A stretch of 64,000 nucleotides of DNA, from assembly GCF_036785885.1 (NCBI RefSeq), contig NC_092323.1, positions 16,004,501 through 16,068,500 of the forward strand, given 5' to 3'. The notes under the pieces were generated by a model. The model ran no database searches. It saw nothing but the letters and a program-made list of their open reading frames with translations, and was not told where the DNA came from. Positions 14,465 through 54,695 of this stretch are shown one piece after another. Numbering within the stretch: position 1 is the first letter of the stretch; the number at the start of each line of letters is the position of its first letter. This DNA comes from Coffea arabica (lineage: Eukaryota; Streptophyta; Magnoliopsida; Gentianales; Rubiaceae). The position numbers and the translations under genes are program-made.

Positions 14465-16831
14465 CTAGGTAGAACTGAGAAAAGAAGTAGGATTTGGTGG
14501 TATTGGGATATCTACTGTCCCTTCTAGCATTAGCAGAACTTTCTTCATTGTGGGACGAAGTGAGGGCTCTCCTTGGATGCACCAGATAGCTATCTTGATC
14601 ATTCTTTCCAGTTGTCTCATGTTAACAAGCTCATCATCAGCAAACAATTTATGCAACTCTTGAGCCTCAAAGCAATCATAAGCATATTCTTCAAGAATAG
14701 CTTGATCCTCGGGGAAGCTCCAATCAATGTTCTTTCGGCGACATATGATCTCGAGCAGCACAATCCCATAGCTGTACACATCTGCTTTAACTGTGACTGG
14801 CAATTTTTTATGCCATTCTGGTGCAACATAGCCTTTTGTCCCTCTGATTGCAGTAAAGGTTTTGGTCTGATCATGCTTTAAGAGTTTTGCTAGGCCAAAA
14901 TCTGAGATTTTTGCACATCTGTGTTCATCCATGAGGATATTTTGAGGTTTGATGTCACAATGGATGATTTGTGTCTCACACTCTTCATGTAAGTAGAGAA
15001 TACCTCTTGCAATGTCACAAGCAATTTTAATCCCTTCATCCCAGTTGGGCTGGTTCTCTTTGGCATAAAGGACATCCGCCAATGATCCGCTGCTCATGTA
15101 TTCATACACTAGAAGCTTCTTAGGTCCATCAGCACAGTAACCAAGTAACCGGACAAGATTACGATGATGTGTTTTTCCAATCACTGCCATCTCATTATGG
15201 AACTCCCTTTCTGCTTCCCCTTCAGCTAATATTTTTTCCAGTCTTTTCACGGCGACTGTCTTCTGGAAATCCATCAGCATACCTTTGTAAACAGTTCCAA
15301 ATGCTCCTTGTCCCAGCTCTTCTTTGAAGTCATTTGTTGCCCGCTCTAGTTCTGCATAGGTGAATGCCCGCGGGGCAACATCGCCGATTGGTTCAGCATT
15401 CTTGTATCTGGACATGTTTTTGTGAGCACCTAATTGATGTATATGAATAAGAACCCCAGAAATTACAAGTATCACCAGGGCAAAAACAAGAAGTGAAATG
15501 CTGATGATTAAGATATCCAGACGCAACTTTTTCTTGGGGTGTAATTGGGGATAGCTCGGACCACCTCCAACTGGGGAACCAGGCATGCCCACCTTCACAA
15601 GAGCAACTTTTGGATTAGTCAGCACTCTTTTCCCATATTTCAATGGAAGCCTTTGCTTGCTGCATCCACCATCTCCAAATAACGCTGCGCCACAGTTGCA
15701 ATCGTTTAGACAAGCCTGTTCGCATTCTTGTCTTATGCTTGTCTTGAATGTGTCATATGAAGCATTTTCCCAGACTGTGTTTGGTATTGGCATCATTGTG
15801 AATCTGAGGATTTCTTTCGGGGATTGACATCCCTCTTGTGAAAAATTTCTCTGACACCCTGAGCTGAGGTCACCTGGAGAAATAAAATCGAATCCTGGAA
15901 TGCACTTACATTCGATGTCAGTATCTACATTGCTGCAGAAGGCATTGAGTCCGCATATGCCTTTGGGTTCACATTTATTTGATGTAGTGTTATACCTGAC
16001 GATCCAGTTGTCTTTGTACTGGAGAGAATATGAATATAGCCGAAAAATACCATCCACATCAATGGTTGCGCGATAGATTGTTTTCTGATCGGGGAATCCT
16101 TGAGTGACATTGAATATTATGGTGCCATTGTCCCTCAACAGGTAGAGATATCCATTTGGGTCAAGATTCAGGGTCACATGCGGCCCGCCATTATTAGTGT
16201 ATGATGAGTAGTAAGCATATGGATCTAAACTCGGTGCATCTGTAGGATATTGCACCAGGGTTCCATCTTGCTGCATAATTAGGCGGAAAGGCCCTGTTGA
16301 AGGATCATTTTCTGAAGCACTTGAAAACAGCTGCCCCTGACCTTGCCCGTCATCAGTTATAAGACGCTGAGTGGGTAAAAGGGTGTCAGTTGGATAATCA
16401 AAACTCTGCCATATGGTGTTGTTAGCAGAATTGTACAGGACAAAATTTCCTGAATCTAGCATAGAAGCTGAAGCAATCTTGTCTTCAGCAAGATTGACAA
16501 TGTCTACTTCTTGGCCTGGTGACTGCTGCAGGATTAGCCTTCCATCATTGGTTAGAACCAGTGTAACATTCAGTGGATGAATGGCACTATCCCTATTGGC
16601 TGTCCATACTACGGTCTTATCAGGAATTCCTCTGAGGGAATCAGGAATTCCATTGAGGAAAACTCCCACAGCATAGCCATTGCCTATGGGATAGAACCCA
16701 AAGGCATAAAGCCCTGAAGGTGACAACCATGATGAGTTCTTGCCAGTGGGTGTAAGAGTAGAACTCGGGCTAATTCGAGCAGCTGCTAAGGAAAATGCAG
16801 ACAAAAAGAGTAAGAACAAAAGGGCAGCCAT
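14465..16831 (-). CDS. G-type lectin S-receptor-like Ser/Thr kinase, catalytically complete
   Basis: An intronless 788-residue receptor kinase. I place the start at the ATG whose complement is 16829-16831, because it begins a clear signal peptide (MAALLFLLFLSAFSLAAA). The frame is open 26 codons further upstream, but that part has no ATG and is basic and unlike a leader. Domains: signal peptide 1-19, B-lectin ~25-165 (SWLSPSGLYAFGFY), EGF-like (CEPKGICGLNAFC), PAN-like cysteines, membrane span ~438-465, kinase ~503-775. Catalytic features are intact: GQGAFG loop (from G507), K529, HCDIKPQN with D626, DFG with D644, APEW. Closest in detail to the minus-strand paralogue at 52356-54695. A perfect 9-bp inverted repeat sits about 240 bases upstream of the ATG. 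Confidence 0.95.
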   Translation of the reverse strand: MAALLFLLFLSAFSLAAARISPSSTLTPTGKNSSWLSPSGLYAFGFYPIGNGYAVGVFLNGIPDSLRGIPDKTVVWTANRDSAIHPLNVTLVLTNDGRLILQQSPGQEVDIVNLAEDKIASASMLDSGNFVLYNSANNTIWQSFDYPTDTLLPTQRLITDDGQGQGQLFSSASENDPSTGPFRLIMQQDGTLVQYPTDAPSLDPYAYYSSYTNNGGPHVTLNLDPNGYLYLLRDNGTIIFNVTQGFPDQKTIYRATIDVDGIFRLYSYSLQYKDNWIVRYNTTSNKCEPKGICGLNAFCSNVDTDIECKCIPGFDFISPGDLSSGCQRNFSQEGCQSPKEILRFTMMPIPNTVWENASYDTFKTSIRQECEQACLNDCNCGAALFGDGGCSKQRLPLKYGKRVLTNPKVALVKVGMPGSPVGGGPSYPQLHPKKKLRLDILIISISLLVFALVILVISGVLIHIHQLGAHKNMSRYKNAEPIGDVAPRAFTYAELERATNDFKEELGQGAFGTVYKGMLMDFQKTVAVKRLEKILAEGEAEREFHNEMAVIGKTHHRNLVRLLGYCADGPKKLLVYEYMSSGSLADVLYAKENQPNWDEGIKIACDIARGILYLHEECETQIIHCDIKPQNILMDEHRCAKISDFGLAKLLKHDQTKTFTAIRGTKGYVAPEWHKKLPVTVKADVYSYGIVLLEIICRRKNIDWSFPEDQAILEEYAYDCFEAQELHKLFADDELVNMRQLERMIKIAIWCIQGEPSLRPTMKKVLLMLEGTVDIPIPPNPTSFLSST

Positions 16832-17072
16832 GATGTTTGAGAAAAGGATATTTGCTCGTTTTATGTGGACTTTTTTTTCTCTCTCTTTTTCTAATTCTGG
16901 TGTTTCCAAATTGGAGGGGATAACAATTTTGAATGTCTAAGCTGCAATTTATAGAAGATTTTTCATTGCAAAAGAAGTATTGAAGTCCTGCTAGACGTAA
17001 AACGCGTGGTGAAGAATTTTCATGTTGTTGATAAATATGATTATCTTGATTTCACAGGAATAGTGCTTGACT

Positions 17073-27633: not shown

Positions 27634-29763
27634 TCAATACAACCTGTCGGTACACTTGCGAGAACCGCAGAAACACTTCTTCATCTTGATGTTTCCATTG
27701 GCATCAAGAACCCGATTGAGCTTGTAATTATAATCATATGAAAGTTCCTTCAATGCAGGTATTTTCTTGGTAGCAAAAAGCATTACATGGGGCACTCTTT
27801 TGTCGTCATGATCGTAAAGAACATTTTGAGCATAAAGATTTGGTGAGCAACTGTGGTTGATGAATCTTCCCACATTCCCATATTTCGCTGCATCAATTGT
27901 AAAGCCTTCACCATCATCAAGATCAAAAAGATATTCATCATTATCTCTTAAATCAGCTTCCTTGTCCTGGAGCAACTCTCCAGCATATTCACATATGAAA
28001 CTGCCAGATGGGATTTCAACTTGTGATCTAACACCCCATCCAGTTGATTTAGTCCTAAATATCTCCAATGGCAATCGAGGACCATGTTGGCTAACTCTGT
28101 TCTGACAAGAAGGTGGGCATTTGCAATTCGGGCCACATTCGTGCACCATTTTCTTTGCTCTAACGATGGAGCCTTCCTCATTGAACGGAAGTTCCCCTCC
28201 GTTCTTCACAGCACAAGGACATCTAATGGAGTCCGAGCATCCACCAACGCAATCACAACCTTCAGGCAATGAGACTTGATACCAATGTGGATACATTATC
28301 TTGGTTATGTAAGTAAAGTTATCTGGTTTTTCAATGCTAATTTCATTCACAACCATGATTGGGACTTTTTCCTTGCCTCCAGACACATCATATCCTGTCT
28401 CAGCATTGTTGTCCTCGAGGTCCTTTAAGGATCTTCTTGGCTTGGTAATACTTAGGTGATTACAATCTGGCTGCCTTGACGATCGAACCAATTCAAACAT
28501 CAAGGACAATTTGCCAGACTTGGATCTTTCAGGCCCAAATTTGCTCACCTTATATAGACCGTCATAGATGTACATTTTCTTTGTAGCTGTGGTTGCATCA
28601 ACAGATCCTAAGATAGTTTTACGAATAACCCTCACAGGATAATTTGCATCCATGCTATTCTTCAAGGCAAGATTACCTCGTTGGAGCTTTTGATCTTCAA
28701 ATGTCTGACCTTGGCCAGAATATAGAAGAATATCAGGAGAAGCCGCTCTGTTTCCATAACGGCGCAGACCTGAATCCACCACACTGTTAGCATACTCTTT
28801 TCCTTCAATTGTCACGTGATTAATACCAGCCATTTGTTCATGATGTAGACCAACAAGAGCAAGTTCAACCCTGAATCGGAACTGGTTGCCAATTTCAACC
28901 CCAGGAACATGTCCGAAACATGGTTCAGTATTCACCCATTTCTGCTGTTTCTTGAGAAGCATTGCTGCTTTAATATGAATCTGTTGTCTCATTGGTCCCT
29001 CCCCCAACTCTTGCTTGTATTCATCTAAGAGACTTCTGTATAGCTCATCAAAGAGCCTAAGGGCATTCTGCACATTGCTGTGACTAACAATGTTCATGGC
29101 TGCATTATCATATGGAACAATTGCCAGATTTTCCATATCCTTCACTTCGGTTTCTTCAACACTCTTTTCAGCTGTATTTCCTTTTTTTCTTTTATTATTG
29201 CAATTGATTCTTGATTGAAGTCTATTTTCCCACTCTGAAGCAGATAAAATGCGAACATCCTCGTCATCTCTTTCTTCTTCCTCTTCAGATTCACGGACTC
29301 CGGATGTTTGCCCATGCACATGATTTTGGCTTGAATTTTTTCGAGTGATTCCACCATGATCCTTGACTAATTTTTTCTCACAAAAATTACTTGATTTCTC
29401 CTCTATAATGCAACAATCTTCATCATCTTCATCTCCATGTGATTTGTTATCAGTTTTGGCTTTCATCTTGGTAATTGGCTCACCTGAGTGAAGAATTGCT
29501 TTCCTTACGAACCCATATTCCACATTAGTTGGTGCCACAATTCTCAATCGCTCAGCTGCTACAGCATTCGAAGAAGCATTGAAATTCTTGATAGTCTTCA
29601 TCGCGGAGGTAAATGGACCACAATGGACTGGAAAACTTCGGACTGAATCAGCATCTGAACGCTTGAATTTTGATGCATGTTTGTTACTTGGATAACTGTC
29701 CTCTTGAAACAGTCGCTTCCCGGGCATCTTAGCAGGAGGGGATGTGTCAGTTAACAAACTCAT
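27634..29763 (-). CDS. SUVH: H3K9 histone methyltransferase, SUVH5/6-like
   Basis: An intronless gene of 709 residues; the first true ATG has its complement at 29761-29763. The product is a nuclear enzyme that should bind methylated DNA through its SRA domain and methylate histone H3 lysine 9, linking CHG/CHH methylation to silencing. Visible order: a variable acidic/basic N-terminus (~1-280), SRA/YDG domain (~280-430, YANSVVDSGLRRYGN, DGLYKV), pre-SET with zinc cysteines (from ~502, CDCVGGCSD and CPCAVKNGG), SET (~560-690, GRFINHSCSPNL with NHSC at 636-639, ELSYDYNY), post-SET (KKCFCGSRKCTDRLY) at the C-terminus. All catalytic motifs look intact. It is shorter than Arabidopsis SUVH5/6 (close to 800), mainly in the N-terminus. 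The segment YSGQGQTFEDQKLQRGNLAL also appears shortened after SGQG compared with the usual SGQGGN..EDQKL form. Lack of introns is normal for this clade. SUVH5 versus SUVH6 cannot be decided here. Confidence 0.93.
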   Translation of the reverse strand: MSLLTDTSPPAKMPGKRLFQEDSYPSNKHASKFKRSDADSVRSFPVHCGPFTSAMKTIKNFNASSNAVAAERLRIVAPTNVEYGFVRKAILHSGEPITKMKAKTDNKSHGDEDDEDCCIIEEKSSNFCEKKLVKDHGGITRKNSSQNHVHGQTSGVRESEEEEERDDEDVRILSASEWENRLQSRINCNNKRKKGNTAEKSVEETEVKDMENLAIVPYDNAAMNIVSHSNVQNALRLFDELYRSLLDEYKQELGEGPMRQQIHIKAAMLLKKQQKWVNTEPCFGHVPGVEIGNQFRFRVELALVGLHHEQMAGINHVTIEGKEYANSVVDSGLRRYGNRAASPDILLYSGQGQTFEDQKLQRGNLALKNSMDANYPVRVIRKTILGSVDATTATKKMYIYDGLYKVSKFGPERSKSGKLSLMFELVRSSRQPDCNHLSITKPRRSLKDLEDNNAETGYDVSGGKEKVPIMVVNEISIEKPDNFTYITKIMYPHWYQVSLPEGCDCVGGCSDSIRCPCAVKNGGELPFNEEGSIVRAKKMVHECGPNCKCPPSCQNRVSQHGPRLPLEIFRTKSTGWGVRSQVEIPSGSFICEYAGELLQDKEADLRDNDEYLFDLDDGEGFTIDAAKYGNVGRFINHSCSPNLYAQNVLYDHDDKRVPHVMLFATKKIPALKELSYDYNYKLNRVLDANGNIKMKKCFCGSRKCTDRLY

Positions 29764-30070
29764 CTTCAAGTTAACCTACGAGAATCTTTGATGTTTCCTA
29801 ACTGAAATTTTGACCACTGAATAAATGGAAACAATGGTTGTTGTACCTAATTAAAACCTGAAAACAATATGAACCAATTTTGAATTTACTAATAACCAGT
29901 CAAATAAGAAAAGAAGGCAACATGTGGGTAGAGGATAAGTACACAAAAAAAAAAAAAAAAAAATGGGCTCACTATAAAACTTTGACATTATCTGACAGGT
30001 TGTCGATGCCTGTGCAATAATAAAAATAAACCTAATTGTCAATTAAAATAACCAAAACCCGATTCCAAGT
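29764..30070. other. 5' flank of the SUVH gene
   Basis: Presumed promoter and leader of the minus-strand SUVH gene, with an A-tract of about 19 bases near 29945-29963. No other gene is visible. Confidence 0.35.
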
Positions 30071-33368: not shown

Positions 33369-33527
33369 CTCCAAACTAGACAAAATGTTTCTTTTTCTTC
33401 TACAATGTTGTAGGAATGATGTTTTTTTATTTTTAAGTATGAAGTATAGTTAACCCAAATTAACAAGAGAATATGTTATACTAGTAATTAATCTGCTTTT
33501 TGAACATGCCCTTATAAAAGTTTTAAA

Positions 33528-33973
33528 GGTACATTACGTATAACCCCTTGTGGTCTCATACAGTACTACATCATAACATGAGCCCTCTAATGTTTTAAAA
33601 TATACAATTTATCCCCTACTGTTTCATGTAGAAGAAAATTTGACATAACATAGCCTCTAAAACGTCATTAGTTGAAAACCAGTATTGACCTTATTTAAAC
33701 ATCAAATTGAACAATGGCATAAGGACCTTCCTATGGGTGGCTTATGTGAATAAATGAAAAAAGTACAAGGGAGTTGAACGGATATTATGATTCCACATAT
33801 TGCATCTTTGGAGAGATTCCATTGCCATCATAACCGATGGTGCTTTCTGTCTATTTTCTACTTTAATTTACATGGAACCACGGGAGGAATATATATGGAT
33901 TGGACATTTTGAAACCTTAAAGAGATTATATGGCAATACGCAAAATTACAAGGGGATTGTATGTAATTTACCC
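33528..33973. mobile_element. MITE, family B copy 2
   Basis: Left end GGTACATTACGTATAACCCC and right end GGGGATTGTATGTAATTTACCC are imperfect inverted repeats, matching the form of the MITE at 17898-18360. No clear target duplication is visible. Non-coding. Confidence 0.6.
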
Positions 33974-35753
33974 AAAGAAATAACAGCAAAGGAATTGTTG
34001 TAAAATAATTAACAACTTTGAATTTGAATTAAGTGATTTTCCTAAGAAATGTAACTTGGAATCGAAAGTTGTATGCAAGCCTAGTGCGCCTCCAAAATCA
34101 TTTGATTTTGGAGCTTTAGTTTGATAAGCAATGGAGGCAAATAGCAAATATTAAATTGCATTTATAAAACAAGAATAAATTTAGTGTTTTCTACAATTCA
34201 GTTAATAAGAATTTTTGTGATTAACTATGATTAGTTTTTCCTAAACTTTTTCACACTAATTCAATGGCTATATAGGAGATAATTTCTTTTCAACTAAGAT
34301 AATCAGAAATGATTGAATCAGTCATCTACACCCTTCAACAAAAAGATTAAGACAAACAACATGGACATATTAAAATAAAAATAAATTTTTACGATTTGTA
34401 GGGATTAGATTTTCAAAAATTACTTTTCTTAGTAACTTCATTCCCCTCTCATCCGATATAATTTGGGTTCTATCACGTTATACCAATGGGGAAAGGCAAA
34501 ACAATTTATGTAATCGGCTACTTTTCTATTCCTTCTAAGTCATTAATTTTTCAATTGAGTACTTGGCCTGTGTAGTTAGCTACATGTAAATGAATGTGTT
34601 GTGTACATGCTTGATGAGTTTCCACTACTATCAAATTGAAAAATGCATGCCTGTGTATCGAGCAAAAAGCAAAAAGAGAATACCTCAATTTTTATTGAGC
34701 TACTTGAAGCTGATATTCAAATCCAGTTCTGATTGAAAAGATGGTTTCCTTCGAAAATGGCTTTCTTATGTTTCTTGCTGTGATTAATTAAGATACTTGC
34801 GAGCTCTGTGAAACAGAATGTTTTCCATCAAAATAACAAAATTTCTTCTCTAAAATAAAATATATAGCATTTAAATTTTCTTTTTGGAAAAATAGAAAAA
34901 ATATTTTGATATCTCAAAAATGTAAATAATTCCAGACAAAAATCAAAAGAAAGGGATTTGAGCATTCGATTTTAGGATTTTGGGCCTTAGTATGTATATA
35001 GAAACAGTTCAAGAAATAAAATCTAAAAAATAATTAAAGTTTAGCATCGGATACGAACATGTCAATATGGCAATCGTCTTTCTTTCTGTTGACATCTACC
35101 TTTCGTCTTACAAAAAATTAATAGTTTTACAAATATTGGAACAAAATTTCTATACACAAACCAGCCCTATCACAAAACATAATTTGTTCCAATAAAAATG
35201 TTTATAAAAGGCAAAGGCAAGAAACAAGAACAATGTAAATTTACCAAACCAAAAGGTGAAAGTCAGGAGCAAGCTTGAGATTTCTTTTTTTTTTTTTTTT
35301 TAAAAAGGTGAAAGAATCCTATATGAATAAGAATTTGAAACTATTTGTACGGGGTTGAAACTTCAACAAAACCTATATGAAACTAAATGAATCGATTGAA
35401 CATTTGGATTTTCCAAAGCTTGACTATAGTTGAAGAAAATTAAGAGATGCTCATAAAATTCTTTTAACAAGGAATTACCTATGAGAAACAAAAACTAATT
35501 TATGCCTGAAAACAACTGTTAACACTTATCTTGAAATCAATTTTCCTACCCATAAAAGATTTGGCTCTCTTATATAAAGGAACTAATATTGCAAAGCCAA
35601 ATGTATTTCAAATGTATGACGAAGGAATAGCGATAAAGATACATGATTTAGTTTACAATTTTGACACATAAACTACTAAAAGAATGAAGAAAGAAAATCT
35701 TTAAATAAAGAATAACTCATTAGGGAAAATGTTTGTTTTATTTAACTTCAATA
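33974..35753. other. Gene-free AT-rich region
   Basis: No gene is supported. Contains a T-tract of 18 or more bases (~35283-35300). It runs up to the left target-site duplication of the cycloisomerase retrocopy. Confidence 0.35.
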
Positions 35754-36931
35754 TACAAGCCTCATTCTATTTTTTTTTCACCAGGAAAAATGCATAAAGG
35801 TAAAATATGAGCAAAACAAGATACCGTACATTGTGCATCTCATTGGCAATTTGTTGAACTAAGGATACAAGAAAAACATGATACAACCGGTGTTGCATCA
35901 AAGAAAACAGAAATGCATGCATGACTGCTCCTACTGTAGTTAGAGATCATTCTTACAAATGCTCTTCCCTGAAGAATTTTCCTTGGCTTCAGAATTGTTG
36001 GGTATGTTCGGCAAACCATGGTAATCCTGATTGAGGACACTGCTTTGAATCAGGAATAGGAACAATAGGTCCAAGGAAAATGCGCCACAAGTCCAGTGAA
36101 ATTGTAACAAGCATTGCAGCCCCCAAGGCATCAATGGCCACTCTGGGTAGGTCCCACGGATCGCCAGGTTTTTCATCAACCCTCAGAAACATTGGGAAGC
36201 TGACAATGAAATAAATTGCATAAAACAAGCTGCCAACTTTGTACATGGATGCTCGGTCCACAAACGTATAATAGGGAAAATTTGCAATAGCCACTGTCTC
36301 CAGATATGCAATGACATAAGCAAGAGCCAGAATCCAGCCAGCCTTAAAAGCCCATTGAATTGTCTCAGGCAACGCAGCAATTGCATGTTGTAGTCTACGA
36401 AGAGTAATGTTTGAAACAACATGGTAAAACAAGAAGCAGACGTGAGCAAGGAGGAAAGTTGTATGGGGTACATCATTCATCCTCCATGATGGAAAGGTAT
36501 ACGATGCGCCCAAAACTTTGAAAAAGTAGTGAGTCCAAAAGTAATTTCCAACATAACTGAAAATCATCATCCAGAGATTAGCCTTTACCCAATAGCGATT
36601 GCTCCAAGAAACATTTCTATCAGCCTTTCCAACAAATAGAAGTGGTACTACAAACGTAGGAACTGCCGAAACAAGACCAATAAGCAGATACTCCCATTCT
36701 GTGAATGTCTCATATAACTTGTAAGGAACAACAATGCCAAGGCAAAGGGTTAACCAGAAAGGTGTATATAGAAGAAAGAATATTTCGCCCCATCGCTTAC
36801 TTGGATTTTGAGCTAACCACATCATACAAGATCTATTAAACTATATTTTTGCCTTCAAAATCCACCTCAAAGGACTTTTGCAAGTACTGATCTGTTCAAA
36901 AAATGACTGAAGAGTGTTACAAGCCTCATTC
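35754..36931 (-). mobile_element. Processed retrocopy insertion: target duplications, poly(A) and cycloisomerase cDNA
   Basis: The 14-mer TACAAGCCTCATTC occurs at 35754-35767 and again at 36918-36931 (17 bases if one mismatch is allowed). Between them, read on the minus strand, lie about 92 bases of leader, an intact intronless cycloeucalenol cycloisomerase frame, about 210 bases of 3' sequence and a tract of nine A (35778-35770) ending beside the left duplication. This is the structure left by LINE-type reverse transcription of a messenger RNA. The parent gene is not in the window. Confidence 0.8.
35989..36825 (-). CDS. CPI1: Cycloeucalenol cycloisomerase, intronless retrogene
   Basis: 278 residues in one open frame. 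The enzyme (EC 5.5.1.9) opens the cyclopropane ring of cycloeucalenol to give obtusifoliol in plant sterol synthesis, in the endoplasmic reticulum membrane. The whole length matches the family from WLAQNPSKRWGE through FFLLYTPFWLTLCLGIVVPY, YWVKANLW, SYVGNYFWTHYFF, LGASYTFPSW, NVPHTTF and SGLPWFAEH, with several hydrophobic membrane segments and no break. The family usually has a few more residues before WLA; here an in-frame TAG lies six codons upstream of the first of two consecutive ATGs, so the N-terminus is slightly short. The family gene in Arabidopsis is, to my knowledge, multi-exon, so a single uninterrupted frame with a poly(A) tract and target duplications points to a retrogene. Whether it is transcribed is unknown; the intact frame suggests youth or selection. 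Confidence 0.92.
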   Translation of the reverse strand: MMWLAQNPSKRWGEIFFLLYTPFWLTLCLGIVVPYKLYETFTEWEYLLIGLVSAVPTFVVPLLFVGKADRNVSWSNRYWVKANLWMMIFSYVGNYFWTHYFFKVLGASYTFPSWRMNDVPHTTFLLAHVCFLFYHVVSNITLRRLQHAIAALPETIQWAFKAGWILALAYVIAYLETVAIANFPYYTFVDRASMYKVGSLFYAIYFIVSFPMFLRVDEKPGDPWDLPRVAIDALGAAMLVTISLDLWRIFLGPIVPIPDSKQCPQSGLPWFAEHTQQF

Positions 36932-37449
36932 GATTCGATAATATAATAGGTCTTTTTTGTTGAAAAAAATACATGTATTACAAAAGTATTCATTATTAAG
37001 TTACCATCTTAGCAAAATCACTACCTATTCTCGAACACTAACGTCCTTCCTATGTATGATTACAAAATATGAAAAATTAATACTATCCGACATGACCATA
37101 AAATGCCAACATATTCCTTTGAAGTGCGAGCCATATCTGCAAAATTAAAGTCAAGAAATAATGTTGTTGAGTTTCTCTCTAAGCTATTGAATTTGTTTGT
37201 CATAATAAAGGACTTTTGCAAGTACTGATCTGTTCAAAAAATGACTGAAGAGTGTTACAAGCCTCATTCGATTCGATAATATAATAGGTCTTTTTTGTTG
37301 AAAAAAATACATGTATTACAAAAGTATTCATTATTAAGTTACCATCTTAGCAAAAATCACTACCTATTCTCGAACACTAACGTCTTTCCTATGTATGATT
37401 ACAAAATATGAAAAATTAATACTATCCGACATGACCATAAAATGCCAAC
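36869..37449. repeat. Recent 242-bp direct duplication upstream of the cycloisomerase retrogene
   Basis: Copy 1 is 36869-37110 and copy 2 is 37207-37449, separated by 96 bases. I find only one inserted A and one C/T difference between them. Copy 1 covers the distal leader of the retrogene, its right target duplication and adjacent flank. The first 49 bases of each copy do not resemble the DNA left of the 35754 duplication, so they came with the insert; the duplication therefore followed the retroposition. Confidence 0.9.
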
Positions 37450-40400
37450 TCTGCAAAGTAATTCACGATGCCATATATGGAAAAGGCATAAAAATTGAGG
37501 CTATATGATAAATTATTAGTGACTAAAATCTTGAGTTATGACAAGGATCCTCATCTATTTCTTATATGTATAGACATTCATATTTCGTGTTCTAAATTAA
37601 ATAAAGCTTTTGACTATATGTGCATATTTTTGCATCATTTAAAAATCTACTTGGTACAATAAAAATGTTAACAACTTCTCAAGAGAGGAATTGAATAACC
37701 TATTTTGCATGATTCAATTTTATCCTTTGTTTGAATATTTATGTGCATAATTTAATGAGTAAATCTTTCCTACATTGAGAATGTATATACTATCACTATT
37801 TGATTCATGACATGTGTACAAAAGTTGAACTTCAAATTCAAACTTTGTATAGTTGTTATTCATCCAATGCTGATAGTATATCCACTGTTAGTATAGGGAA
37901 GATTAATCCTAATTTAATTATGTCTTTCAACATGGTACATTAAACTTACAAAGAATCATATTCACAACAAGCTATAGAGTATGCCTAACAAATATTTATT
38001 TTCACATCAATAATGATAAGGAATCATGTTCCAAGATAACATAAAACTTGGTAATGGGATGAAATACCTAAATACAAAGAAAAAAATTATGATTATTGCA
38101 TCCTTGAACTGATACAACTAATAAACTAACAAGGAACTAAGTTTCTATTGTCGGCTACTATAAATTTAGTAAAAAAGTTACTTAATCAAAATCACCAAAA
38201 GAAATTGTCCAGCATATTCTAAATTTTTTGACTTTTTGCCTGCTACAAAATCTAAAATCTAAGTCCAAAAGCAAATGAAAACATAAAAAAAAACCCCTTC
38301 AGAAGAAGAAAAAAAAGTTGATTAAGCTATATTATGTTACTTTTTTATGCCATACATTCAATTGGAATTAAATATATCCCACTTAATTATTATGGTCTTA
38401 GGCACATATTGAAGTTCCATTGAACCTCCTCAATCCACTTTTGCTAATGGTCGGTTTTTCCTAAAGTCAATTAGATTCATAAATAACAAAAAACAATACA
38501 TTATACATTGAATGTCATTGAATAAATTATGCAAGCACAATTAATGGATAAAATCTAATTTTAACAAAAAGAATGTGCGTATCACTAAATCTACAACAGA
38601 CTCAATTATAATTTATAAAAGGTTCAAAATGCCATTAAAAGATTTTAATTCTTGAAATGAAATTATGTTTATGGCCTCTTATTATTTCTCTAATTATTGC
38701 AGTCACCGATATCATTTTCTCCAAAATCGATATATCTTATATTAACTAAATATGATAGAAAGAAAAAGAAAAGTCTATGGTATAAAATATTTTTTGGATA
38801 TATGAAAAATTTTAGAAAGAAATTGCCACAATGTGCAAAGTCATTAATAGTCAACTACTTATTGATTTTGTTATATATCAGCACAAAATCAAGAATACAA
38901 AATTATCTTGTGCCATGAAATCTCCAATTTTCTCAAAAAGAGAAGCTTGCCTTAATTTTGTAACTACAGATGCTACCTAAAAAAACAAAGGATTAATACT
39001 TATTCTGGAAATTTTGGTATCCAACTATTTGTACCAAACCCCAGAGGTCCCTTTTTTTTTTTTTGGCCATCGTCACTTTATCTATACTATCAAACTCTAA
39101 TCTAATTTAAGGGGATACCCAATTGGGTCTACGAGAAACCGATGAAGACTGAATCACAATCAAACCAGACGGATGCACTATGCACCCGTGGGTCTCTCTC
39201 CCATTGGATGCCTCTTTTCTCATTTTTTTTCCTTGGTCTATCCAAACTAGCCCCTAATAAAGTCTACCACAGCCTCACCCTTTGTTAACCAAAACCCTAA
39301 TTCTCCCATGTCCTCTTCAGGAAAATAAAAACAAAGGACCAAAATAAAAAGATGGACTTCTTCATTTCTCATCTTTATAGACTTAGTTTTCCCTGGTCAT
39401 ACTTTTGTCTTATATCTCAAAATCCCTTTAAACTTTCACTAAACTCCTTCTAATCTTCCCAAACCCTCATAGTAACTGGATCAAACTCTGCCTTACCTTT
39501 CCTTTCGCTTATCAGCATTGTAAATTCTTGGATTAAGCTAATTTTCCTTTGATATATAAGTACATCTTTATCTTTATGATGTAGTAGCACATAGTGCTTG
39601 CACATAAATCAAGTGAGCCCTAGGTGAGCCGTTTTGCATGTATCTGACCAGCCAACTGCTACAGGAAAGACAACCAAAAATTCGAATTGGTGAAGGACAA
39701 GAATTGAGTAAGGATAGATTGGATTGATTTGAAGTCCGAAGTTCTGATTGGATTAGACCAATGAGCTCCTTTCCCACCTCTCACCCCCTTCACAAAATTT
39801 GATTAACTTGTACTTCTTCTTCATTTTTGTTGGAATTAGTATTTTTTTTTTTGGTGTTTTTTCGCTTGTGATATGTTTTTTCTAAAAACATCTTTGGACA
39901 TGGTGTTCTTTTGGGGTATTTTTAAGTTTTAAGGTAGTTCTCTAAGTACTTTTGCTGCCCCCTTCCCAATTCACCCTATTGCGCTAGGCCCATTGCCTTC
40001 TTTTTTCTCTTACTACACCAAATTTAGTGATGATAAAGGAGAGGAGAAGGTTCATGACCAGTGATAAGGAATGCAAGGTAGGAGGAAAGGGCTGCGGGGA
40101 AGGATACGGGAGTTCCACTAACCATTTTATCTTTTCATATCTATGTTAGCTAGAGTCATTTATAGGAGTGACACCAACATGACTGCTCCACTGCAAAATG
40201 AAGAGTTAGACATGAGAACAGCATAACAAATGAGAAGAGTCCAGATAACACAGCTTCAAATTTTAAACTGTAAAGAGGAATTTTGAAAATTCATATGTAC
40301 ATATTCAAATTATAAGAGTTTCATTATAATTTCTCCTTTTGTTATGGCTGAAGTAGTAATGAAAGGTTGAAAATAATTTTTATAACCTATTAAAATTTCA

Positions 40401-42385
40401 AACCAAACTTAAGCACTATGTATACTCGATGAGGCTCACATAGTACACAGACACTACATAGTCATAACTATACACCAACAACAAAGACTTGTACACTCCC
40501 TCAAAGTGTACCATAGCACAGCGCAAAAGTACCCCAAATCCAAACCGCAATGTATTGCCATGTGATACCCTTAGTTGAATGATAACATGTCCTAAACTTG
40601 AATCCTAATGACCCATTTCCATCCTACAAATTCTTTCCAAACCTCGATAGTTGCAACTTATCTGATGCATGAAAATAACAAGAAATAGAATTATTTCAAA
40701 TTGTCCAACTCAACTGGTGGAGATATTAGTTAAGTGACCATAAAGTCCCAGATCCAATTCTTAAGTTCTCCCTTCTCCCCTCGCAGTTGAAAATCTTGGA
40801 ATCTCACTTAAAAAATAAATAGTAAGTAGAATTAAGGGCTCATTTAATAATCCAATTCAACACTTAAATTTAATGGATCGGATCTTAACATATTCAGATG
40901 TTTTTGATAATAAAAAATTAAACATCTAAATTAATTAAGTGGCACTGAATTTTCTAGGCAAAACTTACTCTAAAAAATAAGTAATAAACTATTCACTTAT
41001 CATTCAATATGGTATACATTCAAATATGCTAGATTTAGTACTTAACAATTCAATAACTTAATAAAAACAAATTTTAGTTTTCAATTTTCAGATTTGAGTT
41101 TTATCAAACGCACCATAAGTACTTGAATGTCAACATTAGTTTGTACATAATATTTGATTATTTAGTGTGAAAGAAACCTTAAACAAAAATGACGTCTCAC
41201 CTACATCACGAAATAGATATCTATTAATAGAATATGTAATACATCTCATCTTGATTTAAAACCCTATCAACTATTCAAATTAACTAGACGAAGCTAATCA
41301 TAAAGCACAAAAGAACAAAAGACTCGGTCCTTGTTTTCTAAGCATAGATTTTATTGCTATTCTAGTCCAGAGGAGCATTTTTCCTAGTATAAGACAGAAA
41401 TAACAAGTACTAGTCAAACACGCCACAGAAATAATCAAAGAAATCTATATACTTCTTTTCAGGCTGCAAGTAGATAATGCTAACTTTGATAGGAAGTGGG
41501 AATGCCATGGCTTTTCAGGAGAACAAGAAACTTGGGGCAGTCAGGATTGGGATCAGGCAGGTACGGTTGAGGTTAAGTACAATTGGTATAGCCATTATAC
41601 TTATTTTAAAAGTTAAGTGATTGTATTTATATATTAAATTGTTGTACACGAGCAAAATTAACGTGTACAACTATAAAATAATGTTGCTACAAAATAATGT
41701 TATTATAAACCAAATCATATTAGATATACAATAACCGTACAACCGTACACAGAAACTTCAATCGTACTTTCCCCAAATTCGAATGAATTGTTGATGGTAG
41801 TTTAGCAAGTAGTCAACACATATATGTTGTATAATCATACTATCTTGTTATAGCCTCGGTACATGGAATGTTACATGCATGTACATTAATATCTGTAACA
41901 CAATAATAATATGATGTAATTGTACACCAAATTATTTGATGCAAAAACACAAGATTTTTATACAATCATACGAAACCAAATTCATATCTTCCTCAACTCT
42001 TAAACTTAAAATACACCGACTTTTTGCTCTTTACGTTAAGCTTGAAAGATGGAGATGGATGATATTTAGATGATATGACATATATGGAAATCGCTTGTTT
42101 GGCCAATGCTAGCCAGACCAGTCAATATAGTGTGGAGATTAAAATAACTTACTTTTTAAATATTGAGATGATGCAGACTCAACGCTATTCAATCTTCCTG
42201 CTGCGATCGCTTGGTGTAGTAGTCCTTCGCATGCCCCGCCCAACAGGGCTTGGTGTTTGACACTTTAGGTTTAAAAGAATATAAGGAAAAGGTACAGGAA
42301 TAAATTTAACATCATAAGACTGACAATTTAAAGCAGGGCAAAATAGTTGCAAAAAAAGAAAAAAGGAAAAAAAAAAAAAAGGTAC
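37450..42385. other. Five-kilobase gene-free region
   Basis: No coding region is supported on either strand. AT-rich, with T-tracts (39052-39064, 39842-39852). Around 40710-40780 there is a weak tRNA-like stretch (CAACTGGTGG... then CCCAGATCCAATTCTT) that could be a decayed SINE. Around 42195-42256 a short GC-richer patch occurs. Nothing else stands out. Confidence 0.35.
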
Positions 42386-44018
42386 GTTGCAAATCAAAAT
42401 ATAGGGCTGTTCTCACTTGGTGAAGATTTTGCAAATCACACTCCACCAAAGCAAGGCAATTTTTGTTAGAGTTTAGGTTTTACCTTTATAATCTACACAG
42501 CAGACAAGAACATTAAAAAAAAAACTATTTATAACAAGAAACTTCACCCTGTGCCAAGAAAAGTTTTTTTTTTTTTATTCCTAACCCTAGACTCTCTAAG
42601 GCAAACTGAACTTATTCTACTCCTAGAGTTAGACTCCTATTCCAATTCTATCTCTGAACCCACTCTGCCATCTCTCTTTACCAAGCATATATAGTTGGCA
42701 AAATACATCATAAGGGCATTTTGTAATTGAGTATCTAAATTTGTTTCCTTTAGCAGGCTCCCTCAATTTACACAACATTCAGTTAGGAAAATCCTATACT
42801 GAGAGACACATGATTCATACGATAGATGCAAACTAAATTATAACCCTGCTCTTGAATTTTAAAGATTTCAACATTTGTATTTGTATTCATTAATTTTAGA
42901 GAATTCCACCCACCTCTTTGATTGTGGCCCATCTAGATTCCATATTTGTATTTATCTTTTACACATATCATTGATTTTAAAGAATTCCATATTTATATTT
43001 ATTGCTTACACATATTGTCACTTACATATATTGTTAATTTTAGATATTTTAATGTTTGTGTCTATCCTTTACACGTCGTGATTTTTAGTAAAATCTCTTA
43101 CACATATTGTTGATTTTAAAGATTTCCATGTTTGTATCTATTGCTCGCACATATCATATACAGTAATTTTAAAATTTTTCATATTTGTATTTATATCATC
43201 TATCTCTTATACATATCATTGATTTTAGAAATTTCCATGTTTCTATATATGCTTACACATATCGTGATTTTCAGTAGAAGCTTTTTGTAACTCAGTTGTA
43301 ATTCAGTCAGTTATGGTATTGGTAGTAGTCTACCATGTAAACAAGGAACATGGGAAGGTTACATGTATGCTGTAATCTTCCCAAGTCTATCACTATTTTA
43401 TTTCTTTAAATGTCTCAATTTTAGGTATGAAAATTCTATACTAAACAACAATACACTTAAGCGACAAAAACAAACTAAAAGATCTATTTTAGGTATCTTT
43501 AAAATATTCACTCCCTACGTTTTAAAGCAGGACAAAAAAGTTATAAGACTGTGCGGTTCTCCTAGGTTGATATAGATTTGGCAAAAAGAAAAAAAGAATA
43601 AAAAAGGTTGCAAATCAAAATATAGGGCTGTTCTCACTTGGTGGAGATTTTGCAAATCACAATCCACCAAAGGAAGGCAATTTTTGTTAGATTTTAGATT
43701 TTGACTTTACAATCTACACAGCAGACAAGAACAGTAAATAAAAAACTATTTATAACAATAAACTTCACCCTATGCCAAGAAAAGTTTTTTTTCCCCTAGC
43801 CCTAGACTCTTTAGGCAAACTGAACTTATTCTACTCCTAGAGTTAGACTTCTATTACAATTCTATCTCTAAACAGACTCTGCCATCTCTCTTTATCAAGC
43901 ATATATAGTTGGCAAAATACATCATAAGGGCATTTTTGTAATTGAGTACCTAAATTTGTTTCCTTTAGGAGCCTTTCTCAACTTACACATCATTCAGTTA
44001 GGAAAATCCTATACTGAG
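42386..44018. repeat. ~415-bp direct repeats flanking a minisatellite
   Basis: The segment 42386-42803 recurs at 43607-44018 with scattered substitutions (both begin GTTGCAAATCAAAATATAGG and end GGAAAATCCTATACTGAG). Between them lie the minisatellite at about 42860-43265 and a tail ending CACTCCCTACGTT. The minisatellite plus tail recur at 48070-49085, so this is a dispersed, non-coding repeat family. Confidence 0.8.
42860..43265. repeat. ~46-bp minisatellite, array A
   Basis: Imperfect tandem units of the form TTTGTATTTATC-TTACACATAT-TGTTGATTTTAGAGA-TTCCATG, about eight to nine copies with indels. The same unit builds the array at 48070-48720. No protein-coding potential. Confidence 0.75.
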
Positions 44019-44362
44019 CAATAGGCCTATCAATGGGTCAGGGCCGAAATTTATTAGTCAGGGCCGAAATTTATTATTCCGAACCTAGACCCGTTATACT
44101 TTATCGGATTCGGATTTGTCCCGTTTATCTGACGGGGCGAATTTTTAAAAGAGACGGTAAATTTTTAAAAAGTTAAAAATTTTGCACCAATATAATTAAA
44201 ACCTAAAATTTGTCTAATAATAGTTGAAAGCATGACAAAGTGTGTAGATCATTCAAAAACTGCGTTTTTGTGGAAGATGGATCTTGAAATAATAATATAA
44301 ATTTATATTAGAAAATGAATGATATATGGATAGAAATAAATGTAACTGCATATTTTATTTGA

Positions 44363-45398
44363 TTTCAAAATGAAATACTTACAAACATTTTGCATTCGAT
44401 TTGATATTTTTGTACAAATGTGCAAATATTTTTTATACCAATCAACTTTTAGTATGAAAAATAATATTGGTGGTTTAATTAATTCTATTGAATTTTATGG
44501 AGTTCGTACTATAGAAAAATGTTTAGCGAGAATTGTATTTGTTGGAAGTAAATTTGCTGAACCTTTTAAAATATTTCAGTGGGATTACTATGATGTAAGA
44601 TTTGTTTTGTGATCAGTTGTTTTCTCCTTTATACTCTTACAAATTTGAAATTGAGACGCCATTGAAATCAATGATGGAACTAAGGGAGGCTAATAGGGGC
44701 CATAGCCCTGCTTAAGTTTTAAAATTTTCAATTCATATTTTATAAATATTTGTGTAAAATAAAGTTGGCCCCCTTACTTTTTTACAATTTTAATTTATAT
44801 TATGAGAGTTTATATATGTGTGTGTGCGCGCGCGCATGTGTGAATTAACTACATTTGAATTAATTTTTTTAAAAAAAGTTATTTACTTTTTACATCCCTT
44901 TATAATTAAAGTTAATATTTGATGTTTTTAGATGTCATATATTTAAATAGATGAAAATTATTTCAAAATGAAATACTTACAAACATTATACATTCGATTT
45001 GATAATTTTGTATAAAGGTGCGAGCATTTTTTACATCAATCAACTTTTAGTATGAAAATCAATATTAGTAGTTTAATTAATTTTGTTGAATTTTGTGGAG
45101 TTTGTACTTTAAAAAATGTTCAATGAAACTTGTATTTCTTCGAAGTAAACTTGCTAAACCTTTTAAAATATTTCAATGGGATCACTATGGTGTAAGATTC
45201 GTTTTGTGATCAGTTATTTTTTCCTTTATAATCTTGCAGGTTTGGAATTGAGACATCATTGAAATCAATTATGGAACCAATGGGGGCTATAGCCCGCTCT
45301 CCCTAAGTTTTAAAAATTTTAATTCATATTGTGTAAATATTTATGTAAAACAAAGTTGGGTTTCTTAATTTTTTACAATTTTAGTTTATATTATGAGA

Positions 45399-45430
<32 letters not shown>

Positions 45431-45553
45431 CTGAAATAACTACCTTTGAATTAATTTTTTCTTATAAAAATTATATATTTTTTGCGTCCCTTTATAATTA
45501 AAATTAAAATTTGATATTTTAGATGTCATATATTTAAATAAATGAAAGTTATT
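44363..45553. repeat. Tandem duplication of a ~598-bp unit
   Basis: Unit 1 is 44363-44960 and unit 2 is 44961-45553; both start TTTCAAAATGAAATACTTAC and contain ACCTTTTAAAATATTTCA, GATCAGTT, and TAGCCC followed by TAAGTTTTAAAA. They differ by many substitutions, so the duplication is not recent. An open frame of 80 codons in unit 1 is broken in unit 2, arguing against a conserved protein. Probably transposon-derived, class unknown. Confidence 0.85.
44811..44842 (+). repeat. 32-bp alternating purine-pyrimidine tract with (CG)n core
   Basis: TATATATGTGTGTGTG runs into CGCGCGCGC and then ATGTGTG, an unbroken alternating tract able to adopt Z-DNA. The equivalent position in the second tandem unit (45401-45430) is (AT)4(GT)11 without CG, so the microsatellite diverged after duplication. 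Confidence 0.85.
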
Positions 45554-47501
45554 TTGAACATGACACATAAAACTTTGTTACTGATTGAAATGTTTGTAAG
45601 TGGGATTTATCTATGGTGAAAGTATGTTACATAGTCTTTTTTCACTGTATTCAATTTGTGTGATGATAAATGAAAATGGGTTATTGATCATCAGCTTTGT
45701 GAATGATTATGAGAGTAAAATACATTATGACAATAAGATATATAGAATTGTGGAAATTGAATTCAAATGGATTCCTAAATTCTGGATATGTGATTTTTGT
45801 AGTTGTGAGTTTCTTAAATTAACAGTTAGTTATTGCTATCAAGGATGTGATAAGTGTGAGTATTGCTATTAGTGATGTAGTAGTGTCAGTAGCAGATGTG
45901 AGACGTAAATTAAAATTTGCACATATCATTTTGAAGGGTTGGTTATTATCTATTAGTTAAAATTTAGGAGTTTTGATTTTGTGAGTTAGTGGGTCAAGTA
46001 AATTGAAGAGTGGGAATGGATAAGGAGAAGAAAATAAACTAGAATCCCTTAAGATGTCTGTCCTGTAGATTAAGATGCATGTTACCATTGGAATCTCTGA
46101 TTTTGTATGTAAATATTGTACCTATTTAACAAATAAAATGTTATATACAATACAGAAAATATGTTGAAATTAAAGGTACATGAAATTAATTACCTAACAA
46201 CAGTATCGACCACGTTATTATAATGCATACACACTATTTTTGAAAAATGACATTCACATAGTTGTCCACAATTTTTGCATAACTCATAGAACATGTTTCC
46301 TCCTTTGCAAACTTGCGAGTTTGAAATTTAGCTGTCGTTGAAATGCTTGTAGGGGGGCACGTTCCATAGTGAAATTAGGTCAATGGATAAGATGGATACA
46401 TAAAAAAGTTGAAGGAGATAATAAGTTCTCAGGGAAAACGCAAGAAAGTTCTCTTAATTGGAGTGGGAAAGTAGACGAAATGTAGGGAAAACGTGAGCAT
46501 GATTATAGGATTTTTAGGAGCGGGTATAAGATTAGTTGAGAGATAATCATTTCTTAAAAAGAAGGACTCTTAATTGGAGTGGGAAATATGGGGAAAATGT
46601 GGGGAAAATGTGAGCATGATTATAGGATTTATAGTATACTTAATAACTTGATAGTATACTCAAATCGCCAATGAGGTGAAATTTGCCTAAATAAGCTTTA
46701 CAGCATCCTAATTCCTTGCAAAAAAAAAAAAGTGCTAAATAGTCTTAATTGGCATTGCAAGTTACGGCAACGTGCCAGTGGCATCTAGTCCTAATTTTTT
46801 TTGGGTCAAAATCTAGTCCTAATTGGTTCTGCTGTTTCTTGATCATGTTGTATGCTTCCGAATTCTACTTAGGGTGTAACAATTGATAATGGCTTATTCT
46901 ATTCTTTCATGGTATTAGACAGACGAAAACCACACCAGAAGTGTGGTAAATTTACTATAAACTCCTAATATTATCTCCCCTAATTTTTGTAAACTTTTTA
47001 AAAAATTTAAACTTTTATCAACAATAGACTGGTCACGCAAATTAAAAAAAAAATGGACTGGTCACACATCTCATTCTTTGCCCTAAAGAACTCAATTCAG
47101 CAAATTTCTTAGAATAATGGTGAAAAAAATCATAACAATGGAGGAACCTAGGTTTGTTTCTTTTTTTTTAGGATCTGAAATAGCCCTATTCATTTTAATA
47201 AATAAATAAATTGGCCATCTTACGTTCATTAAGAAAGGGAAAATTTTTTGGTCGTTGCACATGGATGTCCGGCCATCCTAAAAGGAAAAACAATCAATTG
47301 TAAAATTGTATTAAAATAGCATATGAATGAGAATTTGTCTTTAATTGAGGAGTAAAAAGGATTTAAAGTATAAGTAATAAACTATAAACGGCTTATGAAG
47401 TAGATAGTGAGAAAGTTTTAAAATTTAAATTTGACTGGTAATAGGGTTAGTTATAACCTAGGGTTAGTTATAACCCACTATTTTTTATGTATTAAAATAA
47501 A
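45554..47501. other. Gene-free region with a 117-bp-spaced direct repeat
   Basis: No gene is supported. The block 46446-46519 (TCTTAATTGGAGTGGGAAA ... GAGCATGATTATAGGATTT) recurs at 46563-46635. An open stretch at 45600-45872 starts without ATG and resembles no family. Confidence 0.4.
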
Positions 47502-52355: not shown

Positions 52356-54695
52356 TTACATAGCACTGAAAAAAGAATCTGGACTGGGAGGAACCGGAAC
52401 ATCAGCAGTCCCTTCTAGCATAAGAACAACTTTCTTCATGGATGGTCGGAGCGTCGGCTCATTCTGGATGCACCACAAAGCAATTCTGATCATTCTTTCT
52501 AGCTTTGTCATGTCAACTACCTGTTCCTCCCCCACTAGTTTATGGAGTTCACCATCCACGAAACAATCATAAGCCCACACTTCAAGAATGGATTGTTCCT
52601 CAGGAAACCTAGAGTCTACATTCTTTCGACAGCATATGATCTCTAGCAGCACTATTCCATAGCTGTAAACATCTGCTTTAACTGTCACTGGCAAATTACG
52701 ATGCCATTCTGGTGCAACATAACCTCTTGTTCCTCTTACCGCAGTATAAGTTCTTGTCCTGTCATGATCTAATGGCTTTGCCAATCCAAAGTCCGATATC
52801 TTCGCGCACCTGCTGTCGTCCATTAGTATATTTTGAGGTTTGATGTCACAGTGGATGATCTGTGTCTCACACTCTTCATGTAAATAAAGAATTCCTCTTG
52901 CAACGTCAGAAGCAATTCTGATTCTTTCATCCCACCAAGGATGATTTTCTCGCTTGAAGAGAATATCCGCCAATGACCCATTACTCATATATTTATACAC
53001 CAGAAGCCTTTTATTTCCATCAAGGCAGTAGCCAAGCAGCTGGATAAGATTGCGGTGGTGTGTTCTCCCGATTACTCTGATTTCATTTTGAAACTCCTTT
53101 TCCCCTTCTACTAATACTTTCTCTAGTTTTTTCACAGCAACTACTTTCCCTGAATTTGGCAAAACCCCTTTGTATACAGCACCAAATGCTCCTCTGCCCA
53201 ATTCTTCTCTGAAATCATTTGTTGCTACCTCCAGTTCAGCAAAGGTGAAGGCTTTTGGAGCCGCATCCTCCACAAATTCCACATTTCCATTTTGCGTTAT
53301 TTTCTTATAGGCCCGCACCTGATTTCTGTGAACATAAACCCCTGCAATTACAGAGATCACGACTCCAAAAACAGCGAGTGAAATCCCAATAACTAGGATA
53401 TCCACACGAATTTCTTTTTTGATGCTTTTTGGAGGACTACTGGGAATTACACTTTCACTGATGGATGCAAGTGTACCCACCTTGACCAGAGCGACATTCG
53501 AGTCACTTGTCCTTTTCCCATATGTCAATGGGAGCCTTTGTTTTCTACATTCTCCATCTTTATAAAATGCTGCTTCACAGTTGCAATCATCAAGGCACTG
53601 CTTTTCACAGTCTTCTTGTGTGCTTGTTTCCATTGTAGCAAATGTATTATCTTCCCATACCGTATTTGCCAATGATCTAATCTCGTACTTGACATTGGTA
53701 ATACTATTAGATTTACAACTTTCTGCAGTAAAATTTCTCTCACAGCCTGAACTCCAATTTCCTGGATTTACAAAGTCAAATCCAGGAGGACATCTGCATT
53801 CAGCAACATTATCCATCATGGTACAGAAACCATTAGGCCCACATAGGCCTTTAGGAGCACATTTATCCTCCACAGATTCCCACAAGATGGACCTGTTGCC
53901 TTGATTTGAAGAGTATGAATACAATCGAAATATGCCATCCACATCAATTTTTGCCATATATACTCTTCCATCTTGAGGATATCCTCCTTTGGTTAGATTA
54001 GACAATATAGTTAAGCTTGAATTGATCAAGTAGAGATGACCATCACCATCCAGATTCAGAGTGACACCATTTCCAACTGTGTGAGTTGCATAGTAGGCGT
54101 ATTCGGATGTGTCTGGCGTTCTCACAGGATACTGCACCAGGTTTCCATCATCCTGCATCTTTATCCGAAAAATCCCCGTCGAATCATCAGTTTCTGAAAC
54201 ACTAGAATACAGCTCGTGACCAGTTGCCAGCTGCTGACCAGGTAACAAAGTGTTCGTCGGATCCTCAAAACTCTGCCATACAATTTTCTTATCAGAATTG
54301 TACAGGACAAAGTTTCCTGAATCCAACATCGAAGCCGAAGAAATGCTTTCAGAAGGATCAGCAATAACGATGTCCTGGCCCTGTGTGTGCTGCAAAATCA
54401 GCCTTCCATCGCTTGATAACACCAGTGAAACATTGCTTGGAAAAACAGGGCTGAGCCTGTTGGCTGTCCATATTACAGTTTTTTCAGGGATTCCCACAAG
54501 ATATATCCCAACAGCATAGCCATTGCCTTGCTGGTAAAAACCAAAGGCAAATAGACCTGAATGCGACGACCATGATGATGAGTTGCCTGTAGGTGTTAGA
54601 GAAGAACCAAGGCTTATATTTAGATGGCTTTGTTGAGCTAATGCTGTAGCTAAACAGGATACAGATGATAAAAGGAAGAGTAAGAATACAGCCAT
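52356..54695 (-). CDS. G-type lectin S-receptor-like Ser/Thr kinase, catalytically complete
   Basis: An intronless 779-residue receptor kinase starting at the ATG whose complement is 54693-54695. Signal peptide 1-20 (MAVFLLFLLSSVSCLATALA), B-lectin ~25-155 (SWSSHSGLFAFGFYQQGNG), EGF-like cysteines (CAPKGLCGPNGFC), PAN-like module (CEKQCLDDCNCEAAF), membrane span ~431-455, kinase to ~770. The active-site set is complete: GRGAFG loop, K522 in VAVKKLE, HCDIKPQN with D617, DFG with D635, APEW. The closest relative in the window is the gene at 14465-16831 (shared NGYAVGI, ISDFGLAK, NLPVTVKADVYSYGIVLLEIIC), suggesting those two are one duplicated lineage. TTGACT, a W-box core, occurs at 54789-54794, 94 bases upstream of the ATG. 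Confidence 0.96.
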   Translation of the reverse strand: MAVFLLFLLSSVSCLATALAQQSHLNISLGSSLTPTGNSSSWSSHSGLFAFGFYQQGNGYAVGIYLVGIPEKTVIWTANRLSPVFPSNVSLVLSSDGRLILQHTQGQDIVIADPSESISSASMLDSGNFVLYNSDKKIVWQSFEDPTNTLLPGQQLATGHELYSSVSETDDSTGIFRIKMQDDGNLVQYPVRTPDTSEYAYYATHTVGNGVTLNLDGDGHLYLINSSLTILSNLTKGGYPQDGRVYMAKIDVDGIFRLYSYSSNQGNRSILWESVEDKCAPKGLCGPNGFCTMMDNVAECRCPPGFDFVNPGNWSSGCERNFTAESCKSNSITNVKYEIRSLANTVWEDNTFATMETSTQEDCEKQCLDDCNCEAAFYKDGECRKQRLPLTYGKRTSDSNVALVKVGTLASISESVIPSSPPKSIKKEIRVDILVIGISLAVFGVVISVIAGVYVHRNQVRAYKKITQNGNVEFVEDAAPKAFTFAELEVATNDFREELGRGAFGAVYKGVLPNSGKVVAVKKLEKVLVEGEKEFQNEIRVIGRTHHRNLIQLLGYCLDGNKRLLVYKYMSNGSLADILFKRENHPWWDERIRIASDVARGILYLHEECETQIIHCDIKPQNILMDDSRCAKISDFGLAKPLDHDRTRTYTAVRGTRGYVAPEWHRNLPVTVKADVYSYGIVLLEIICCRKNVDSRFPEEQSILEVWAYDCFVDGELHKLVGEEQVVDMTKLERMIRIALWCIQNEPTLRPSMKKVVLMLEGTADVPVPPSPDSFFSAM

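Follow-up and report, generated by a model that had tools for sequence, protein, structure and literature searches.

A retrocopy derived from the mRNA for cycloeucalenol cycloisomerase is located on the minus strand at positions 35754-36931 of the Coffea arabica sequence analyzed here, a stretch of 64,000 nt on contig C14 (“the window”), and a second retrocopy occupies the syntenic site on contig C13. Judged by its sequence features, the element is an L1-like retrocopy that carries the complete parental frame. We consider it very probable that L1-like retroposition took place before the presumed subgenomes diverged and that, since then, the copy has persisted in both lineages as a protein-coding gene.

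The open frame of the retrocopy (35989-36825, minus strand) consists of 278 codons without an internal stop and preserves the entire frame of the parental gene. Introns are absent and seven of seven parental junctions are precisely joined. Along the coding strand, the 5' copy of a target-site duplication (36918-36935), which differs by one substitution from its C13 counterpart, is followed by 52 nt of the parental 5' UTR exon 1 (36866-36917), which form the 5' end of the retrocopy, by the intron-free exons 2-7 (157, 84, 42, 111, 192, and 98 nt; 36182-36865), and by the covered 404 nt of exon 8, including the 3' UTR (35778-36181). The exon 8 sequence leads into a poly(A) tract of nine A residues (35770-35778), the first of which is possibly templated, and then into the 3' copy of the target-site duplication (35754-35771), which is exact over 14 bp in the window and over 16-18 bp in C13 if two A residues that might belong to the tail are included. 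The leader comprises at least 92 nt and reaches into the parental 5' UTR exon. All of the features listed in a preliminary description of this region, namely an intronless 278-codon frame without frameshift or premature stop, 14-bp direct repeats and a poly(A) tract on the 3' side, were thus seen. Both C13 and C14 contain a TATA-like sequence (TATATTA) that precedes the retrocopy by about 28 bp (counted by hand); at a window G+C content of 34%, it is weak evidence of little weight.

A nucleotide search of the genome to which the window belongs (1,197,963,845 bases in 131 contigs) yielded 19 matches, one of which is a duplicated piece of the leader within the window. The search recovered the window itself on C14, a full-length copy of 98% identity on C13, and two sets of matches of exon size, one on C15 and one on C16, which represent the parents. 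The same four loci, and no fifth, were found in a protein search, with 14 matches among the best candidates scored (26 of 26). Both parents consist of eight exons of 52, 157, 84, 42, 111, 192, 98, and 404 nt, and the exon-by-exon match with the copy ranges from 96 to 100%. Splice signals are present at every parental junction, including one GC donor after exon 4; this GC-AG intron follows the 42-nt exon 4 on both contigs (L010:4173-4214 and L011:4207-4248). Exon 1 belongs to the 5' UTR. The copy shares its start methionine with both parents, and an in-frame stop precedes it at a short distance. The retrocopy would be full-length relative to a parental transcript whose outer ends, in exons 1 and 8, were set by where the match with the copy stops. 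C13/C14 and C15/C16 probably represent homoeologous pairs. The multi-exon parent for which a search had been recommended was therefore found twice, on C15 and on C16, and these eight-exon genes, together with repeats that exactly bound the insert, back the initial proposal of mRNA retroposition. The enzyme had also been described as normally single-copy. Among the best candidates scored, each presumed subgenome carries one intron-bearing parent and, in addition, one retrogene.

The putative name of the enzyme rests on an assumed Arabidopsis CPI1 sequence: the copy shows 77% identity to it over 273 residues without a gap, and the copy and its parents start 13 residues later than this protein. 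Pfam returned no family for the 278-codon frame (E ≤ 0.001), the best NCBIfam hit was an unrelated model at a non-significant E of 0.31, and no match to the frame was found in the PDB up to an E of 1. Among prokaryote genome contigs, 12 stretches fit a pattern and none of them was confirmed as a relative of the protein. Cycloeucalenol cycloisomerase converts cycloeucalenol to obtusifoliol by opening the 9beta,19-cyclopropane ring of the substrate, and the retrogene would likely contribute more of this isomerase activity or the same activity with a different expression.

The relationship of the four loci was analyzed in an alignment of the two retrocopies (R13 and R14) and the two parental transcripts (P15 and P16) comprising 1,140 columns, in which a single-base gap adjoining the poly(A) tract was left uncounted. 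Seven of the seven informative substitution sites group R13 with R14 against P15 with P16. As these sites and the shared insertion site unite the retrocopies, the insertion predates the split of C13 and C14. Gene conversion with the parents was also considered, and the four-way alignment, with 0 conflicting sites, gives no hint of it. Synonymous and UTR changes are distributed as six on the stem and as 6, 10, 5, and 2 on the tips leading to R14, R13, P15, and P16, which would make the insertion roughly 1.5 times as old as the C13/C14 split, with a wide error. For the progenitors of C. arabica, one study dates the split to 4-6 million years ago (PMC11018527). If this date is taken, the insertion would be about 6-9 million years old.

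The substitutions accumulated since the split suggest that the copies did not drift freely. Both 278-codon frames are intact, with no stop and no indel between R13 and R14, and the 10 coding changes that separate them comprise eight synonymous and two non-synonymous ones (dS 0.0445, dN 0.0031). Under neutrality, about 70-78% of changes are expected to alter or stop the protein, and the chance that at most two of 10 changes are non-synonymous is 1.7e-4 to 8.5e-4 with transition biases of 1-4 and up to 1.6e-3 under a strong CpG/CHG bias. This pattern provides evidence, from only 10 coding changes, for purifying selection acting on the retrocopy frames since the split and, as read from the substitutions, therefore for a working retrogene, which has probably been kept in both presumed subgenomes. 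The preliminary description had called an extra functional copy notable, and this idea gains support from the intact frames on C13 and C14 and from their 8:2 ratio of synonymous to non-synonymous changes.

Divergence along the two contigs points in the same direction, albeit marginally. Between C13 and C14, 10 of 837 positions differ in the coding sequence, as opposed to 136 of about 5,900 aligned bases in the flanks (Fisher P = 0.04; P = 0.03 if the retrocopy UTRs are added to the coding sequence). The flanks used were 33369-35753 and 37450-40986; the near flank (36932-37108), which exhibits five mismatches and two gap openings in 177 columns, was excluded. Gap openings are absent from the retrocopy bodies, the poly(A) tract aside, and number 21 in the two flanks.

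The alternative that fits these data best after selective retention is a young processed pseudogene, neither expressed nor selected, whose frame is still open for lack of time. The copy has diverged little from its parents (dS about 0.05-0.07), in keeping with such an origin, and 10 random mutations avoid a stop with a chance of about 0.6, so that an open frame says little about function by itself. Neutral decay is, on the other hand, difficult to reconcile with the excess of synonymous changes after the split (neutral P 0.0002-0.002 over all mutation models) and with two intact, indel-free copies whose coding sequence has diverged about half as much as the flanks. We therefore regard the pseudogene reading as unlikely, though it keeps more weight than any other origin discussed below.

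Of the three amino-acid changes that fall on the retrocopy side, two appear non-conservative and count against a working gene: E151A is common to both retrocopies and ambiguous in its direction of change, and L243S is confined to the window copy. For the parent pair P15/P16, four synonymous and four non-synonymous changes were counted, a ratio that does not differ significantly from that of the retrocopy pair (Fisher P = 0.32). These parent-tip changes include R70S, located in a stretch that is common with the assumed Arabidopsis protein. It is conceivable, but unlikely, that part or most of the cyclopropane-opening step of sterol synthesis has passed to the retrogene while the intron-bearing parents are relaxing.

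The marks of the insertion event are still legible at both ends of the retrocopy. The exact 14-mer TACAAGCCTCATTC occurs three times: at 35754, at 36918 and, within a secondary duplication of the 5' flank, at 37256. Nine T residues on the plus strand, corresponding to the coding-strand poly(A), are found at 35770-35778, two bases inside the low-side repeat; the C13 tract is one residue longer (10 A as compared to 9 A in C14). Both repeats of C13 have the sequence (AA)TAGAATGAGGCTTGTA, which amounts to 16 bp, or 18 bp with the two A residues that are indistinguishable from the tail, and a single substitution in the 5' repeat of C14 shortens the exact duplication to 14 bp. The 14-bp repeats initially described are consequently true direct repeats, whereas the length of the original target-site duplication is 16-18 bp. 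A census of exact, compositionally mixed 14-mers located 300-2000 bp apart in the window revealed 33 runs, 29 of which belong to three longer repeats; after this filtering, the TACAAGCCTCATTC pair and three other isolated runs of 14-16 bp were left. Length alone thus proves little. The match with the parents, however, starts at the base adjoining the repeat at 36918 and stops at the poly(A) tract, and because the repeats sit exactly at these edges, the pair cannot be attributed to chance, an origin that had been named as a possible objection and that is also at odds with the 16-18-bp form of the same repeat in C13.

Insertions by L1-type LINE elements are accompanied by target-site duplications of about 7-20 bp, and the canonical L1 nick is TTTT/AA. 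Both the poly(A) tract and the size of the duplication agree with L1-type insertion. The coding strand has the nick context CG/AATAGA, and the nicked strand reads TATT/CG. As this site departs from TTAAAA, the insertion is termed L1-like and not L1, a usage that a survey of plant retrocopies follows for its own deviating cases (PMC4838847). In the proposed model, a spliced, polyadenylated mRNA from the eight-exon cycloeucalenol cycloisomerase gene would have been reverse-transcribed and the cDNA would have been inserted at the new locus via target-primed reverse transcription by an L1-like LINE, a step that is deduced from the poly(A) tract and the 16-18-bp target-site duplication. Transcription of the retrocopy would then have been supplied by the local flank.

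LTR integrases generate duplications of 4-6 bp, and the combination of a poly(A) tract with a 16-18-bp duplication suits a LINE-type insertion and not the activity of such an enzyme. In addition, a comparison of positions 34501-39000 with the whole window detected no LTR-like pair around the insert; the repeats seen there were a short inverted one and the duplication of the 5' flank. A cDNA carried by an LTR retrotransposon, via transduction or template switching, is consequently very improbable for this locus, even though LTR-mediated retroposition is presented as the major route in plants in a survey of plant retrocopies (PMC4838847). An ancestrally intronless gene is untenable because the parents contain introns, and a DNA-level duplicate that lost its introns later is hardly credible either, given seven introns missing at exact junctions, a poly(A) tract, a target-site duplication and a contig that differs from those of the parents.

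The upstream side of the window copy was probably rearranged after the insertion. In C14, a piece of 242-243 bp is doubled (copy A, 36869-37110; copy A', 37207-37449; 99.2% identical) around a segment of 96-98 bp, whereas C13 has a single copy of the piece and lacks the segment. The duplicated piece consists of the first 49 bp of the retrocopy leader, part of its 5' UTR, and about 190 bp of adjoining upstream flank. As both C14 copies carry the C14-specific target-site substitution, the simplest reading is a recent duplication specific to C14, with the loss of a second copy in C13 as a less probable alternative. The duplication may have altered the promoter of the window copy or doubled promoter elements.

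Several other features were observed in the window. A stretch of 177 bp (37746-37922) matches its own reverse complement at 73% and resembles a small palindromic or MITE-type element. A direct repeat of about 440 bp (42360-42803 and 43583-44018; 90% identity) has a spacing of 1.2 kb, and two directly adjoining tandem copies of about 600 bp (44362-44963 and 44960-45554) share 85% identity. The retrogene is surrounded by a cluster of G-type lectin receptor kinase genes, represented by four long frames (4211-6607, 7723-10068, 14465-16909, and 52356-54695) with B-lectin, S-locus glycoprotein, and kinase domains. An intronless frame of 711 codons (27634-29769, from a TTG) exhibits SRA, Pre-SET, and SET domains, as in SUVH-type histone methyltransferases.

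If the constraint on the copy is real, the gene number for this sterol step has been doubled in both halves of the crop genome. The locus offers a clear example of how a LINE-type retrogene arises in a dicot, as its target site, its tail and the origin of its leader can still be read, and the presence of two homoeologs makes its survival testable. A literature search revealed no report of a cycloeucalenol cycloisomerase retrogene among the matches listed, in a coverage outside which most subscription journals lie.

Compared with Arabidopsis CPI1, the coffee retrocopy is intronless, and the coffee parents have eight exons. The kind of event is already known: the coffee case is a further member of the L1-like retrogenes of dicots. 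L1-like retrocopies with poly(A) tracts and target-site duplications were described in Arabidopsis and cassava, most of them with non-standard features, and a single cassava case fits the mammalian model perfectly (PMC4838847). As in these examples, the coffee element is a copy of a spliced mRNA with a poly(A) tract and a target-site duplication, with no flanking LTRs found, and several of the published cases likewise depart from the standard target site (PMC4838847). Unlike the copies covered there (PMC4838847), the coffee retrocopy retains the whole frame along with a leader extending into the 5' UTR exon; one homoeolog still has a perfect target-site duplication, and having two of them permits a test for selection. 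The retention of an mRNA-derived extra copy as a gene has parallels in CYP98A8/CYP98A9 and tomato SUN, which are mentioned in the same source (PMC4838847); these genes have reported roles, whereas the coffee copy is known from its sequence and the change in its protein is small.
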